Below the pieces are notes generated by a model. The model was not told the DNA's origin and did no database searches. It saw only the letters and a program-made list of their open reading frames with translations. A program made the position numbers and the translations under genes. This document shows positions 1 to 16,696 of a stretch of 64,000 nucleotides of DNA, in pieces (the first letter of the stretch is position 1; every line of letters starts with the position of its first letter). Location: the NCBI GenBank assembly GCA_031459765.1, contig JAVKHY010000002.1, forward strand, positions 1 through 64,000, in the 5' to 3' direction. This DNA comes from Armatimonadota bacterium. GTDB taxonomy: Bacteria; Sysuimicrobiota; Sysuimicrobiia; Sysuimicrobiales; Kaftiobacteriaceae.

Positions 1-230
<230 letters not shown>

Positions 231-341: not shown

Positions 342-2426
342 TCATGCCCTCGCCGCCGCGCCGGCCTTCATGCGGACCTCGTCCGCGATGCTGGTCGGCA
401 CCTCCTCGTAGTGGGACGGCTCCATGGTGTAGGTGGCCCGCCCCTGGGTGGCCGAGCGCAGGGCGGTGGCGTAGCCGAACATCTCGGCCAGCGGCACCAG
501 GGCGCGGATCAGACGGGCGTTGCCCTGCTGCTCGATCCCCTCGATCCGGCCGCGCCGGGCGTTCAGGTCGCCGATGACGTCGCCCATGTACTGCTCGGGG
601 GTGACCACTTCGACCTTCATCACCGGCTCCAGGAGCACCGGCTTGGCCCGCGCCGCCGCTTCCTTGAAGGCCAGCGATCCGGCGATCTTGAAGGCCATCT
701 CCGAGCTGTCGACCTCGTGATAGCTGCCGTCCACCAGGCGAGCCCGGAAATCCACCACGGGATACCCGGCCAGGACGCCGGACTCCGCCGCCTCGCGAAT
801 GCCGGCCTCCACGGGCGGGATGAACTCCCGGGGAATGGCCCCGCCGGTGATCTCGTCGACAAACTCGATGCCGCTCCCGCGGGGCAGGGGCTCCAGGACG
901 ACCACGCAGTGGCCGTACTGACCGCGACCGCCGGTCTGGCGCACGTACCGTCCCACCGCCTCCGCGGCCTGACGGATCGTTTCCTTGTAGGCGACCTGAG
1001 GCCGACCGACGTTGGCCTGGACATTAAATTCGCGCAGCATGCGGTCGACGATGATCTCCAGATGCAGTTCACCCATCCCGGCGATCAGCGTCTGCCCCGT
1101 CTCCTGATCGAACCGCACTTTGAAGGTCGGGTCCTCCTCGGCGAGCTTGGCCAAGGCCGTGGCCAGCCGGTCCTCATCGGCCTTGGACTTAGGCTCCACG
1201 GCCACGGCGATCACGGGCTCGGGGAACTGCATCGCCTCCAGCACCAGGGGATGATCGGCATCGCACAGGGTGTCGCCGGTGGTCGTCTCGCGCAGCCCGA
1301 CGCCGGCGACGACGTTTCCGGCCGTCACCTCCGGAATGTCTTCCCGGTGGTTGGCGTGCATTTGCAGGATGCGGCTGATCCGTTCCTTCCGGTCCTTGGT
1401 GGCGTTGTACAGGTAGGAGCCGGCGCGCAGCGTCCCGGAGTAGACCCGGAAGTAGGTGAGCTTCCCGACGTAGGGGTCGGTGACGATCTTGAACGCCAGG
1501 GCGGCGAAGGGCGCGGCCGGATCGGCCCGCCGCACCTCGCGGTCGCCGGTCCGGGGGTGCCGCCCCTCGACCGCCGGCACGTCCACCGGCGAGGGGAGGT
1601 AGTCCACCACCGCATCCAGCAACGGCTGCACCCCTTTGTTGCGGAAAGAGCTCCCGGCCAGCACCGGGACGATCCGGTAGGAGAGCGTGCCCAGACGCAG
1701 GCCCCGGCGGATCTCCTCTTCGCTCAGGGTGTGCCCCTCCAGGTACTTGTGCATCAGGTCGTCGTCCATCTCGGCCACGGCCTCGACCAGCGCCTCGCGC
1801 GCCGCCTCGGCCTGCTCCCGCAGGTCGGCGGGGATGTCGGTTTCGTCCGAGCGGGTGCCCAGGTCGTCCAGATAGATGATGGACTTCATCCGGATCAGGT
1901 CCACGACGCCCTGAAAATCGTCCTCCGCTCCGATAGGCAGTTGCACGGGCACGGCGTTGGCCCCCAGCCGCTCGCGGACCATGCGCACCGTGCGCATGAA
2001 GTCGGCGCCGGTCCGGTCCATCTTGTTCACATAGAGCAGCCGGGGGACGCGATAGCGGTCGGCCTGGCGCCAGACGGTCTCGGACTGGGGCTGCACGCCC
2101 TCCACCGCGCTGAGCAGAACCACGGCGCCGTCCAGGACGCGCAGGGACCGCTCTACCTCCACCGTAAAGTCCACGTGCCCGGGAGTGTCGATGATGTTGA
2201 TGCGGTGCTGGCGCCAGAAGCAGGTGGTGGCGGCGGAGGTGATGGTGATCCCCCGCTCCCGCTCCTGCACCATCCAATCCATCGTCGCCGATCCTTCGTC
2301 CACCTCGCCGAGGCGGTGCACCCGTCCCGTGTAGAACAGGATGCGCTCGGTGGTCGTCGTCTTGCCCGCGTCGATGTGGGCGACGATCCCGATGTTCCGG
2401 ATTGTCCGAAGATCAATCCCAGCCAT
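342..2426 (-). CDS. fusA: Elongation factor G
   Basis: EF-G is the translocase GTPase of translation. The 694-residue product has the usual bacterial length. It shows [19 protein letters not shown] (P-loop and switch I start), the [10 protein letters not shown]3 motif and the [10 protein letters not shown]4 motif, followed by the domain II-V sequence ending in the [13 protein letters not shown] region. I chose the ATG at 2426 ([11 protein letters not shown]) because it matches family N-termini. The open frame extends 18 codons further upstream, but that part is not conserved-looking. The gene lies 69 bases after rpsG in the str-type operon. Confidence 0.97.
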
Positions 2427-2495: not shown

Positions 2496-2969
2496 TCACC
2501 ACCGGTAGTGGGCGAAGGCCTTGTTGGCCTCGGCCATCCGGTGGGTGTCCTCCCGCTTCTTGACCGCGCCGCCCTGGCCGTTGCTAGCGTCGAGGATCTC
2601 CGCCACCAGCCGCTCCGTCATCGTGCGCTTGTCCTTGCGCTGGCGGGCGTAGTCCACGAGCCAGCGCAGGCCGAGGGAGAGGCGCCGCTCCGGCCGGACC
2701 TCGATGGGTACCTGATAGGTCGCACCGCCGACCCGCCGGGGGCGCACCTCCAGCAGCGGCATCACGTTGTGTAGCGCCTTGTCCAGGACCTTGACCGAAT
2801 CCTGGCCGCTGCGCTCCCTGACCTGATCCAGGGCGCTGTAGACGATCCGTTCGGCCAGGCTCTTCTTGCCGCGCATCATCACCGTATTCACCAGCCGGTG
2901 CACGATGACGCTGTGGTAGAGCGGATCGGGGGGGATCTCCCGACGGCTGACGGGACCCTTCCTCGGCAT
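2496..2969 (-). CDS. rpsG: 30S ribosomal protein S7
   Basis: S7 is the primary assembly protein of the 30S head and binds the 3' major domain of 16S rRNA. The 157-residue product begins [11 protein letters not shown] and contains the conserved segment with [18 protein letters not shown], followed by GGATYQVP. It ends in AHYRW, the standard length for the family. It sits 16 bases downstream of rpsL, as in the canonical str operon. Confidence 0.98.
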
Positions 2970-2985: not shown

Positions 2986-3363
<378 letters not shown>

Positions 3364-3593
3364 GGCCGTCCTCCTCACATCCTCCGCGTACACGCTCTCC
3401 CCGGCTCAGGCACAGACCACCCCGGGAGCCCGCCGGGGCGGGCCGGGGCGTCGGCGCGATCCGCGGCGCCTCAGGCGCCGGGTGTCGCTACTGATCTCCG
3501 CTGTTCAGTTGCGCTGCGCCATACGCGACACCGGAGGGTCGGTGTCCTGCGGCGCATAGGAGGGTCGCTCCGGGCGACCCCGATTGGCGGAAG

Positions 3594-3878
3594 CTACCCG
3601 CCGGTCTCTTCCGGCGGCCGCAACACTGCCGCCGCCGCCGCGCCGACGGCGATCCCGCAGGCGCGGCCCAACTCTTTCATCGACCCGACCTCGATCAGTT
3701 CGAGGCCCCGTTCCCGGCCGGCCGCGATCACGTCCGCCACCACCCGGCGGTCGGCGTCGGCCGCCACGAACACCACCTGCGCCCGCCCCCGCTGGATCGC
3801 TTTTGCCGTCTGGTGGGCGCCCACGGCCCGGTACTCCGCGGTCCTGAGGCGCTCCAGCGCATCGGCCGGCTGCATCAT
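3594..3878 (-). CDS. L7Ae/L30e-family ribosomal protein (YbxF-like)
   Basis: This is a small k-turn RNA-binding protein of the L7Ae/L30e/S12e family, about 94 residues. The family core is visible: a helix with HQTAKAIQRG, then VVFVAADADRRVVADVI, then SMKELGRACGIAVGAAAAAV. In Firmicutes and relatives the homologue (YbxF, YlxQ-like) sits between rpoC and rpsL, as here except for the ABC-F gene in between. Starts are tandem ATGs at 3878 and 3875. No Shine-Dalgarno precedes them. Instead the start lies two bases after the U-tract of a terminator-like hairpin, so expression may depend on readthrough. The reading frame extends upstream of the ATGs but runs through the promoter, so the longer form is unlikely. 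Confidence 0.88.
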   Translation of the reverse strand: MMQPADALERLRTAEYRAVGAHQTAKAIQRGRAQVVFVAADADRRVVADVIAAGRERGLELIEVGSMKELGRACGIAVGAAAAAVLRPPEETGG

Positions 3879-3880
3879 CG

Positions 3881-3910
3881 AAAAAAGACCCCGAAGGCCG
3901 TCCCTTCGGG
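3881..3910 (-). terminator. Intrinsic terminator/attenuator hairpin in the leader of the L7Ae-rpsL operon
   Basis: On the minus strand an 8-bp stem CCCGAAGG/CCTTCGGG with a 5-nt loop is followed by GTC and six T residues. It starts only about ten bases after the -10 box of the promoter at 3920-3949 and ends two bases before the ATG of the L7Ae-like gene. Its position inside the short leader makes it an attenuator candidate rather than a terminator of the upstream ABC-F gene. Confidence 0.75.
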
Positions 3911-3919
3911 CACCGTTGC

Positions 3920-3949
3920 ATTCTAGCACCCGGTCTTCAGGAGTGTCAA
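3920..3949 (-). promoter_or_regulatory. Sigma-70-type promoter for the L7Ae-rpsL-rpsG-fusA-tuf operon
   Basis: The minus strand shows a perfect TTGACA -35 (3944-3949), an 18-base spacer and a TAGAAT -10 (3920-3925). It lies between the ABC-F gene and the L7Ae-like gene. The -35 context is the same as in the secE promoter. Confidence 0.8.
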
Positions 3950-4012: not shown

Positions 4013-5908
4013 TCAGCCGCCGGGGTCGCCGTCCGTCGTCTCCAGCAGCCGGTACAACTCGTCCAGGCGCCGTTGCGCAGCCTCGAATCGGGCCCGTGCC
4101 CCCTTCACGCGCTCGGCGTGACGGTAGAGCTCGGGGTCGGCCAAGGCCCGACCGGCAACCTCGAGTTCGTGCTCGGCCGCCGCGATCTCGGCGGCCACCT
4201 CATCGAAGGTCGGCCCGGCCCGCCGCACGACTCGGCCGGGGGCGGGTGGGACTCCGGCGGGGGCCCTGGTCGCCGCCGGGGGAGGGAGGGGGGCACGGGC
4301 CCGGCGTCGCCGAAGTTCCTCGTACGATCCGGGAAAGTCGGTGACCATACCGTCCCGGATCGTCAGGATCCGCGTGGCGATCCGGTCCAGCAGGTAGCGG
4401 TCGTGGGTCGCCACGACGATGGTCCCCTCGAACTCCCGGAGGGCGGCTTCCAGCGCCTCGCGGGACGGAATATCCAGGTGATTCGTAGGCTCGTCCAGCA
4501 GCAGCAGGTTCGGCTCGTCGAGCAGCATCTTGGCCAGGCTGAGGCGCTGGCGCTCGCCGCCGGAGAGGACGGCAACCTGCTTGAAGACGTCCTCCCCGGT
4601 GAAGAGGAACCGGCCGAGGTAGGTGCGCACCGCCTCCGGCGTCATTGGACGATCGGCGAGCACCTCGTCGAGGACGCGCTTCTCAGGGTCGAGCGACGCC
4701 GTCGGTTCCTGGGCGAAGTATGCCGGGCGCACATTGGTCCCAAAGGTGACGCGACCGGTGGTGGGCGGTTCGAGGGCGGCCAGGATCCGGAGCAGGGTCG
4801 TCTTTCCCGCGCCGTTGGGGCCGAGCAGGCCGATGCGCTCGCCGCGAAAGATCACCAGGTCCAGCTCCCGGAGGACGGACCGGTCCCCATACCGCTTGCT
4901 CACGCCCTTCAGGGTGGCGACCGACCGGCCCGACGCGCTCCCCGCAGAGGGCCGGGCCGCCATCGTCCGGTGTCTGCGGGGGGCCTTGAGGAGATGGGCC
5001 TGCACACGGCTGAGCCGCTTCTCGCGACTCCTGGCCATGGTGGCGCGTTGGCCGGCCTTGTAGCGTCGGATGTAGGCCTCGAGTCTGGCGATCTCCTCTT
5101 GCTGCCGCCCGACGAGCTTGCGCTGTCGTTCCTCCCGCTCGGCCTTGAGGCGCGCGTAGACGGAGTACGCCCCGGGATACGACGTGATCCGCCGGTCCTC
5201 CAACTCCAGCGTGCGCGACGTCACCGCATCGATGAGGTGACGATCGTGACTCACGACGATCGCCGCACCCGGGTATCCCTGCAGGTAGTCCTCCAGCCAC
5301 TCCAGCGCCTCGAGGTCCAGGTGGTTCGTCGGCTCATCCAGCAGCAGGAGGTCGGGCTCGGACAACAGGATGCGGGCCAGTTCGGCGCGCACGCGCCACC
5401 CGCCGCTCAGCGTTCCCAGCGGTTGCCGGCGATCGGCCTCGGAGAAGCCCAGGCCGGACAGCACCATCCCCGCGCGGGCTTCGAGGGTGAATCCGCCGGC
5501 ATGCTCGAAGTGCGCGTGCACCGTGCCGTACTCGTCCATGACCGCCCGCAGGCGCGCCGGATCGTCGTGGATCTCAGGCCTGGCCATCTGCGCTTCGAGC
5601 ACTCGCAGGCGTGCTTCGAGGGCCCGGACGTCGGCGGCTCCGGTGAGCACGTGCGCCCACACGGTCATGTCCCCAGACCCTTCCGGGATCTGTGCCAGGT
5701 AGGCGGCCCGGGCCCAGGAGGCCAGGCTGACCGCGCCGCGGTCGGCATCCAGCAGCCCGCCCGCGATGCGCAGCAGCGTGGTCTTACCCGTGCCGTTGCG
5801 GCCGACGAGCGCCACCTTCTCCTTCGGCTCGACGCTGAAGGTCACAGCGTCCAGTAGCACTTCGCCGCCGTAGGTCTTCGTTACGTCGGAAACGGTCAGG
5901 ATCGGCAT
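4013..5908 (-). CDS. ABC-F family ATPase (ribosome-associated, Uup/YfmR/EttA type)
   Basis: ABC-F proteins are cytoplasmic twin ATPases that act on the ribosome (translation-state sensing, stalled ribosome rescue or antibiotic protection). They are not transporters. This 631-residue protein has no membrane segments. It has two ATPase domains: Walker A GRNGTGKTT near residue 37, then LSGGWRVRAELA and LLLLDEPTNHLD; a linker rich in Arg/Lys (about residues 245-320); then GPNGAGKTT, LSGGERQRLSLAKML and a second LLLLDEPTNHLD. A C-terminal charged coiled coil (about 545-625) resembles the Uup-type C-terminal domain. The gene sits between rpoC and the L7Ae-like gene, inside a translation/transcription operon region. 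The subfamily cannot be decided by eye. Confidence 0.92.
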   Translation of the reverse strand: MPILTVSDVTKTYGGEVLLDAVTFSVEPKEKVALVGRNGTGKTTLLRIAGGLLDADRGAVSLASWARAAYLAQIPEGSGDMTVWAHVLTGAADVRALEARLRVLEAQMARPEIHDDPARLRAVMDEYGTVHAHFEHAGGFTLEARAGMVLSGLGFSEADRRQPLGTLSGGWRVRAELARILLSEPDLLLLDEPTNHLDLEALEWLEDYLQGYPGAAIVVSHDRHLIDAVTSRTLELEDRRITSYPGAYSVYARLKAEREERQRKLVGRQQEEIARLEAYIRRYKAGQRATMARSREKRLSRVQAHLLKAPRRHRTMAARPSAGSASGRSVATLKGVSKRYGDRSVLRELDLVIFRGERIGLLGPNGAGKTTLLRILAALEPPTTGRVTFGTNVRPAYFAQEPTASLDPEKRVLDEVLADRPMTPEAVRTYLGRFLFTGEDVFKQVAVLSGGERQRLSLAKMLLDEPNLLLLDEPTNHLDIPSREALEAALREFEGTIVVATHDRYLLDRIATRILTIRDGMVTDFPGSYEELRRRRARAPLPPPAATRAPAGVPPAPGRVVRRAGPTFDEVAAEIAAAEHELEVAGRALADPELYRHAERVKGARARFEAAQRRLDELYRLLETTDGDPGG

Positions 5909-13132: not shown

Positions 13133-13256
13133 TTCACCTCCACTGAGGATTCAGGCGGGAAAAGCAACGAAAGCAAGGCGGTGACGGCCTCGCTTTCGAG
13201 TTGTCGGGTTCGGAGTCGTCAAACTCAGCGTCCTGACCCAAGATGCCGTAAAGACT

Positions 13257-14325: not shown

Positions 14326-14340
14326 CGGTGGTGTGTCGCT

Positions 14341-14480
14341 CCTCGCCCCTGAAGCAAAATAGGCCCGCCGCTCGACAGGCCCACCTCGGTGAGCACCTCG
14401 GCAGGTGACCGATCCGGTCCTTCGGATCCCCGCGGGGATCGCCTGCGGTCTACGGCGCGGCGTATGCGATTGAGCGCCCG
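14341..14480 (-). ncRNA. L10 leader (ribosomal protein autoregulatory RNA element)
   Basis: In the 188-base gap between rplA and rplJ the minus strand carries CCGTAGACCGCAGGCGAT, then a GATCCCCGCGGGGATC hairpin, then CCTGCCGAGGTGC. This is the sequence arrangement I know from bacterial L10 leaders, where AGACCGCAGG pairs with CCTGCCGAGG around a hairpin; the core is 14392-14456. Between it and rplJ lies a GC-rich hairpin (GCCTGTCG/CGGCGGGC) followed by CTATTTTG, which could act as an attenuator. Confidence 0.8.
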
Positions 14481-14513
14481 GACGATCCTGCCCGCCCGGG
14501 CGCGGTCAGTCTA

Positions 14514-16628: not shown

Positions 16629-16667
16629 AACTCCCCCAAAATAAAAAAGACTTTGAAGGCCGGACTC

Positions 16668-16696
16668 ATTATAGGTTCGGCTCTGGGGAGTGTCAA
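16668..16696 (-). promoter_or_regulatory. Consensus promoter for secE-nusG-rplKAJL
   Basis: The minus strand has TTGACA (16691-16696), a 17-base spacer and TATAAT (16668-16673), a perfect sigma-70 consensus. It lies in the 131-base gap between the type II molybdoenzyme operon and secE. The early transcript contains GGCCTTCAAAGTCTTTTTT, which resembles the leader of the L7Ae operon. Confidence 0.85.

Follow-up and report, generated by a model that had tools for sequence, protein, structure and literature searches.

Does the str operon of this bacterium open with a regulated attenuator, or does the short leader in front of its first gene act in some other way? In the window, the whole stretch of 64,000 nucleotides that was analysed, the L7Ae-family gene at the head of the operon is preceded by a promoter, a hairpin and a U-tract that ends two bases before the ATG. 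A sequence-only reading had given coordinates for this leader, which proved exact, and had proposed that the hairpin is a terminator, that readthrough must be controlled for the operon to be expressed, and that the L7Ae-like protein might regulate its own synthesis there. The operon products include S12, S7, EF-G and EF-Tu, so control of the operon sets translation capacity, here in a lineage for which metagenomes are the main source of knowledge.

The genes lie on the minus strand in the order secE-nusG-rplKAJL-rpoBC, an ABC-F gene, the L7Ae gene, rpsL, rpsG, fusA and the start of tuf; names other than L7Ae and ABC-F were assigned by reading the translations. The L7Ae-family gene scores above the cut-off of Pfam PF01248, and its best NCBIfam model is PRK13602, with a score below the model cut-off. 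The first codons of tuf, at about 230-1 on the minus strand 3' of fusA, confirm the earlier placement of fusA and then tuf in the operon.

3594-3878, minus strand: YbxF/RplGB-like gene of the L7Ae family, at the head of the str operon, with a family-aligned start ATG
2986-3363, minus strand: rpsL (S12), with a GAGGAGG Shine-Dalgarno sequence upstream
2496-2969, minus strand: rpsG (S7)
342-2426, minus strand: fusA (EF-G); the longest open reading frame starts at 2480

The ABC-F ATPase (ribo_prot_ABC_F; 4013-5908, minus strand) sits between rpoC and the L7Ae gene, and in several loci of families f5 and f7 rpoC apparently lies immediately 5' of the L7Ae gene, as judged by eye. The L7Ae gene is present in 39 of the 43 genomes of the order. 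The window's own family, f1, supplies ten genomes or loci, among them the window's locus (L002) and L003, which represent two species of one genus; a second, partial L7Ae contig (L032) in the bin of genome G007 has the same leader as L003 and probably comes from the same organism. Among the named records with related loci, MAGs under the labels Armatimonadetes/Armatimonadota or Terrabacteria group bacterium ANGP1 predominate; Bacillota, Candidatus Nitrosymbiomonas, Bacterium HR32 and plain bacterium each label single records, and three distant records belong to Alicyclobacillus. We take the lineage to be Sysuimicrobiota (CSP1-3). In the parts used here, the phylum paper (PMC11604079) recognises a single class with one order and five families, and ANGP1 goes unmentioned in the main text.

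The leader of the str operon contains the following elements, in the direction of transcription.

3944-3949, minus strand: -35 hexamer TTGACA
3920-3928, minus strand: extended -10 element TGCTAGAAT, separated from the -35 hexamer by an 18-nt spacer
3911-3915, minus strand: predicted transcription start region, 5-9 nt past the -10 element, from promoter spacing
3890-3910, minus strand: 8-bp leader hairpin, CCCGAAGG-GACGG-CCTTCGGG (3' arm also given as CCUUCGGG), with an identical stem in L003, the second species of the genus
3881-3889, minus strand: GUC spacer (GTC, 3889-3887) and U6 tract (T6, 3886-3881), T-score 1.94

The promoter is real and heads the str operon. At 3949-3920 it matches the consensus at 11 of 12 positions and carries an extended -10, which bears out the earlier claim of a consensus promoter before the L7Ae-like gene. 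Over 12 kb there are 3 promoter-like sites, where shuffles give 0.7 (sd 0.8), and the whole genome (G000) holds 18 exact TTGACA-16..18-TANNAT sites against 0 in a reversed control. A TTGACA-like/TATAAT-like pair stands upstream of the str operon in 39 of 39 loci of the order, in a scan that kept the best-scoring pair within 220 nt and so always returns some pair; scores range from 9.4 to 11.9, and TTGACA is exact in 36 of the 39. Three ideas about the start region were dropped. A leaderless upstream reading frame of 12 codons, running from the GTG at 3913 and overlapping ATGATG, stops after 4 codons in the sister species L003. An N-terminal extension of the L7Ae-like protein from the same GTG is out of frame in L002, L003, L008 and L010; the frame is in register and open in L004-L007, in register but stopped in L009, and the GTG is absent in L011. 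Reiterative initiation of the pyrG type, a known start mechanism, was set aside since the predicted start has no run of G or U.

The hairpin begins 9 bases past the -10 element and is GC-rich, with 6 GC pairs among its 8 bp. Of 500 shuffles of the window leader, 0.4% produced a perfect stem of at least 8 bp so near the -10. Perfect stems of at least 7 bp occur in L002 and L003 (8 bp each) and in L010 (7 bp), each in no more than 0.4% of 500 shuffles, and none was found near the promoter in loci outside f1 (0/29). Across f1, a hairpin lies near the start in 8 of 10 loci (L002, L003, L005, L006, L007, L009, L010 and L011), its sequence differing from genus to genus and its position about constant; the leaders of L004 and L008 lack the 3' half, which may be a real deletion or an assembly fault. 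The stems of L005, L006, L007 and L009 are longer and interrupted, and 0-12% of 60 shuffles fold as well by energy; for L011 the script picked another fold, and 30% of shuffles were as good. A few leaders of other families, such as L026, L028 and L031, have stable stems of their own. The folding energy of the window hairpin is itself unremarkable (z -1.48, with 21 of 200 shuffles as good, and 33% of 60 in a second test), because in GC-rich DNA this test does not discriminate. Within the genus, between L002 and L003, in hand-picked pieces with gaps allowed, the 5' arm is identical at 11 of 11 positions and the 3' arm with GUC-U5 at 16 of 16, against 11 of 18 in the -35/-10 spacer and 2 of 5 in the loop.

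The U-tract is a different matter. It begins 3 nt past the stem and is followed by CG and then the ATG at 3878-3876 (ATGATG). Post-stem T-scores in f1 are 4.37 in L011, 1.94 in L002, 1.86 in L003, 1.47 in L010 and at most 0.60 in the other four; the tract is thus kept in 3 of the 8 hairpin-bearing leaders (L002, L003 and L011) and the score falls below 1.5 in the remaining 5. The family trait is the stem rather than the U-tract. In the same genome, the window tail at 1.94 compares with 3.42 for the terminator of a fluoride riboswitch and with 3.5 and 3.12 for candidates in the rplJ and rpoB leaders. The 3' end lies 7-9 nt from the stem at terminators (PMC8060035, in part) and 11-12 nt from it at hairpin pauses (PMC12288461, in part), and the GUC between stem and U6 gives the window leader a geometry intermediate between the two. 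The earlier description of a terminator hairpin holds as to the GC-rich 8-bp hairpin and the U6 before the ATG; its reading as a terminator is weakened by the offset, the low T-score and the loss of the tract in most f1 leaders. The start of the L7Ae gene indeed has no Shine-Dalgarno sequence, though the same is true of 20 of the 47 window genes by a simple core test that overlooks the GGGGGAG of secE, the 47 starts being those of our own gene caller. Among these 47 genes, only secE and the L7Ae gene have a U6 within 20 nt of the start.

Leaders of comparable build occur elsewhere in the genome. Of 24 distinct near-consensus promoter sites, one (L076) was missed by the spacing rule of the script; a terminator-like hairpin follows 5 of the other 23, against about 0.4 expected from summed mononucleotide shuffles that preserved base but not dinucleotide content. 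The five are the str leader, L054, L075 (before a V-ATPase-like operon), L077 (before a glutamine-synthetase-like gene) and L070, the gene names at L075 and L077 coming from a reading of the translations; the promoter of L070 is probably a false one that probably lies inside a coding region. L054 (G000 C1, about 6.5 kb) served as a positive control: it is a fluoride riboswitch (RF01734, E 5.6e-9) placed right after its promoter. This riboswitch and its terminator precede a membrane protein that resembles an ion antiporter, and L075 and L077 show long hairpins with T-rich tails shortly past their promoters. Taken together, terminator-like sites show no enrichment in 12 kb (5 against 3.7, sd 2.1). 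When the whole window was scanned for terminators, the matches were the rplJ and rpoB leaders and, for the rest, mostly intragenic places; the str-leader hairpin was missed because the scan demands a tail directly after the stem. In the rplJ leader (14356-14383 and 14330-14510, minus strand) a GCCGUAGACCGCAGGCG stretch is accompanied by a terminator-like hairpin close upstream of the ATG; this leader resembles an L10 leader, though it has no Rfam match. Another terminator-like hairpin lies between rplL and rpoB (13159-13193, minus strand).

Can the str leader be a switch? If transcription starts near 3913, as promoter spacing predicts, the transcript has about 3 nt ahead of the stem, which leaves no room for an antiterminator fold, so that readthrough could be controlled only through RNA polymerase and its factors. 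At the would-be terminator the RNA would be about 30 nt long and almost wholly hairpin, with no time for a ribosome either, and control in the leader would need RNA polymerase, NusA, NusG or sigma. A scan of 39 leaders with a strict kink-turn motif gave a single match, in L079, and none in the ten f1 leaders, which therefore offer no visible binding site for the L7Ae-like protein; autoregulation by this protein through the leader is thus not borne out. The premise that readthrough must be controlled is likewise unsupported, since a pause or an inefficient terminator would be enough.

We tentatively favour the view that the leader is a promoter-proximal brake, a pause or partial terminator and perhaps a 5' shield, rather than a switch controlled by a ligand or by L7Ae, and we judge this to be slightly short of an even chance. 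The strong sigma-70-type promoter would start the RNA some 3 nt before a stable stem-loop, and the message would open with a hairpin. Within the genus, the stem and the GUC-U5/6 that follows would most likely cause RNA polymerase to pause, or sometimes to terminate, just past promoter escape, with NusA/NusG assisting; polymerases that get past would transcribe the whole operon (L7Ae-like protein, S12, S7, EF-G and EF-Tu). The start site, the pausing or termination and the protein partner are all predictions from sequence, and a dependence on NusG is suggested by motif resemblance. Any autoregulation of the operon would more likely act through a separate RNA between the L7Ae gene and rpsL. Known leaders with NusG pauses hold them further from the start site. 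A pause 3' end 11-12 nt past the stem, the distance given in the parts of PMC12288461 used here, would place GTCTTT/TCTTTT at -11..-6; the match to the TTNTTT pause motif of that source is 4/5 at 11, 12 and 13 nt and 5/5 at 14 nt. The leader is like the NusG-dependent hairpin pauses described for B. subtilis (PMC12288461, PMC8060035, each in part) in having a hairpin, a T-rich stretch at about pause distance, a NusG with an N-T pair and a leader position; it differs in that the motif reaches only 4/5 at 11-12 nt and the pause is a predicted one.

In favour of the brake we count the promoter at all 39 loci, the retention of stem and tract within the genus, the stems of different sequence at about the same place in other genera, the recurrence of the tract in front of secE, the pause geometry, the N-T pair of NusG and the excess of terminator-like hairpins past near-consensus promoters. 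Against it stands the loss of the U-tract in 5 of the 8 hairpin-bearing f1 leaders, so that what is conserved may be only the stem, as a stabiliser; the incomplete hairpins of L004 and L008, the ordinary folding energy and the near-control count of one-mismatch CCTTCNNNGTCTTTTT sites also weigh against it. A 5' stem-loop stabilises the mRNA of ompA and aprE, and here such a structure at the very 5' end could block 5'-end-dependent decay, the U-tract serving as an unstructured landing site for ribosomes at a start that has no Shine-Dalgarno sequence. What is common to f1, a stem near the start whose sequence changes while most genera go without the U-tract, fits stabilisation, and a long-lived mRNA would suit a str operon. 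Two f1 leaders (L004 and L008) nevertheless lack the stem, and the exact GUC-U5/6 is retained within the genus and resembles an element of the secE leader that itself has no strong hairpin; we consider stabilisation possible, somewhat on the unlikely side. A regulated attenuator, terminating at 3881-3886 while some signal or the L7Ae-like protein adjusts readthrough, would account for a hairpin and U6 ahead of the operon head, for the strong tail of L011, and would have company in the fluoride-riboswitch attenuator of the same genome. Premature terminators at the head of str operons are moreover a reported kind, the rpsL-leader, for which candidate antiterminators were found (Naville and Gautheret 2010, PMC2965389, in the parts used here). 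These resemble the present case in having a terminator-like hairpin in a str leader whose form varies by lineage; the window hairpin differs in preceding an L7Ae-like gene and in lying at the 5' end of the mRNA, where an antiterminator has no room. The 3-nt spacer ahead of the tract, a tract unconserved at 3 of 8, and f1 leaders without a canonical kink-turn also count against regulation of this kind. The attenuator interpretation is partly supported, and we demote it to one among several readings, an unlikely one.

Two further explanations were considered. The hairpin lies about 100 nt past the ABC-F stop codon on the same strand and could be the terminator of the upstream rpoBC-ABC-F transcript, placed beyond the next promoter by accident. 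It would then act on the str promoter too, and relatives with similar upstream gene ends (by eye) keep the hairpin and have no U-tract, which makes this origin very unlikely. Chance alone, given that hairpins are common in a GC-rich genome and that U6 might be incidental, agrees with a folding energy within the shuffle range and with the absence of enrichment of terminator-like sites in 12 kb. It is scarcely credible, however, against a perfect 8-bp stem found in 0.2-0.4% of shuffles for two species, a 7-bp stem in 0.2% for a third, and the exact retention of hairpin and tract inside the genus. With the brake as the preferred reading, the likely control point of the str operon shifts from an L7Ae attenuator toward the GUC-U-tract and toward an RNA before rpsL.

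This RNA spans 3556-3420 on the minus strand, directly before the r-protein gene rpsL, and comprises three domains; an outer stem was noticed by eye.

3515-3556, minus strand: D1, GCGCC-GCAGG-stem-CNCGUAUGGCGC, from the covariance model and a reading of the gaps
3456-3488, minus strand: D2, a GCGAY..AUCGC stem with one C/A mismatch in the window copy
3420-3448, minus strand: D3, a less conserved CCCC..GGGG hairpin, seen by eye

The gaps between the L7Ae gene and rpsL were taken as 450 nt, or what the contig offered, where the rpsL motif was absent. The D1 core GCGCCGCAGG occurs in 36 of 39 gaps. In 21 sequences, 13 D1 pairs were formed in all 272 cells (100%). In the inner helix both sides change in 23 cells, where shuffles give 8.1, the number of pairs so changed (3 against 2.4) not being above shuffles; the outer helix is invariant in the 21 sequences, and L081 has GCACC/GGUGC in place of GCGCC/GGCGC. 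At a threshold of E<=1e-6 the covariance model recovers D1 from 29 of the 43 genomes: 21 had contributed the sequences used to build it and 8 had not, and each gives one strong match, the next best being at 0.0019. Local search added D1 in G012 (E 1.5e-8), G011 (4.6e-4) and G023 (3.4e-3); D1 is diverged in most f3 sequences and in the f2 form. For D2, 15 cells covary in 14 sequences against 5.3 in shuffles (pairs, 3 against 2.5); the signal drops to 2 cells in a set of 8 f7 sequences, a count reached by 44 of 500 shuffles, and a 7-pair subset in 27 sequences gives 3 cells against 0.4. The D2 counts left out L005 and L006 (no D2 end found), L081 (stem GCGAC/GUCGC) and families f2-f4, and L002, L009, L013, L025 and L030 entered the 27-row count and neither of the 14- and 8-row counts. 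RNAalifold recovered D1 only from the D1-D3 alignment. In the window, the D3 hairpin is followed by TGGTCTGTG and no U-tract, so there is no terminator of the rpsL-leader type near the rpsL ATG.

The D1-D2 RNA is a covarying, conserved structure in most genomes of the order and is unmatched in Rfam 15, where a search gave nothing near the gathering score. In two Alicyclobacillus genomes the best E of the D1 model (R1) was 0.19, and the parts of the literature consulted held no matching element. It shares with r-leaders conservation, covariation and a place immediately ahead of an r-protein gene; it differs in having no Rfam 15 match and in being so far confined to one order, its newness being relative to Rfam models. 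Structures 5' of rpsL are reported for Pelagibacter and others in part of this literature. The RNA is a more likely candidate for autoregulation than the leader hairpin, with S12, S7 or the L7Ae-like protein as the putative ligand. The one biological role established for YbxF/OapC is that in the OLE RNP (PMC9723947, in part), so an RNA adjoining a gene of this type deserves attention. The operon resembles that system in that its first gene encodes the same L7Ae-type RNA-binding family; it differs in that f1 leaders have no canonical kink-turn and that none recurs across genera in the L7Ae-rpsL gap. The strict motif occurs in 7 of 39 gaps, the window's included (one match, overlapping D2), and is common only to the close relatives L007 and L008.

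The GUC-U-tract recurs in the window in front of secE.

16668-16696, minus strand: secE-nusG promoter
16638-16654, minus strand: element AAAGUCUUUUUUAUUUU of the secE leader, resembling the GUC-U-tract of the str leader but lacking a strong hairpin

Exact CCTTCNNNGTCTTTTT occurs twice in G000, in the str and secE leaders; allowing one mismatch raises this to 5, not far above the 2 sites of a control pattern. AGUC-U6..9 starts 14-18 nt past the secE -10 in all nine f1 genomes with a SecE match, and the tenth (G001), which has no such match, holds a one-mismatch CCTTCNNNGTCTTTTT site elsewhere (L113). NusG was found in 41 of 43 genomes. The window NusG carries VRNTPGVTGFVG, whose N-T pair we take to be the equivalent of N81/T82 in the NusG motif; the N-T pair is tied to T-rich recognition in a review. 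That the secE-nusG and str leaders share a GUC-U-tract would point to autoregulation by NusG, which may act on its own operon through pausing at this tract; a narrow literature search found no paper on such self-control. A wider scheme, in which NusG sets secE-nusG output and, in the genus, str output through a GUC-U-tract pause in the first 15-35 nt, and in which str is fine-tuned by the lineage-specific L7Ae-rpsL RNA bound by S12, S7 or the L7Ae-like protein, strikes us as fairly unlikely. Outside f1, a comparable GUC/GUUC-U-tract is present in 11 of the 21 nusG leaders read among the loci returned (10 of 10 in f5, and L149 of f7). In L133 and L137 the tract is present despite a low-scoring promoter pair. 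Three f3 nusG loci have a hairpin followed by GUCUUGUGUUU, three other f3 loci have neither, and four f7 loci have no convincing promoter by search.
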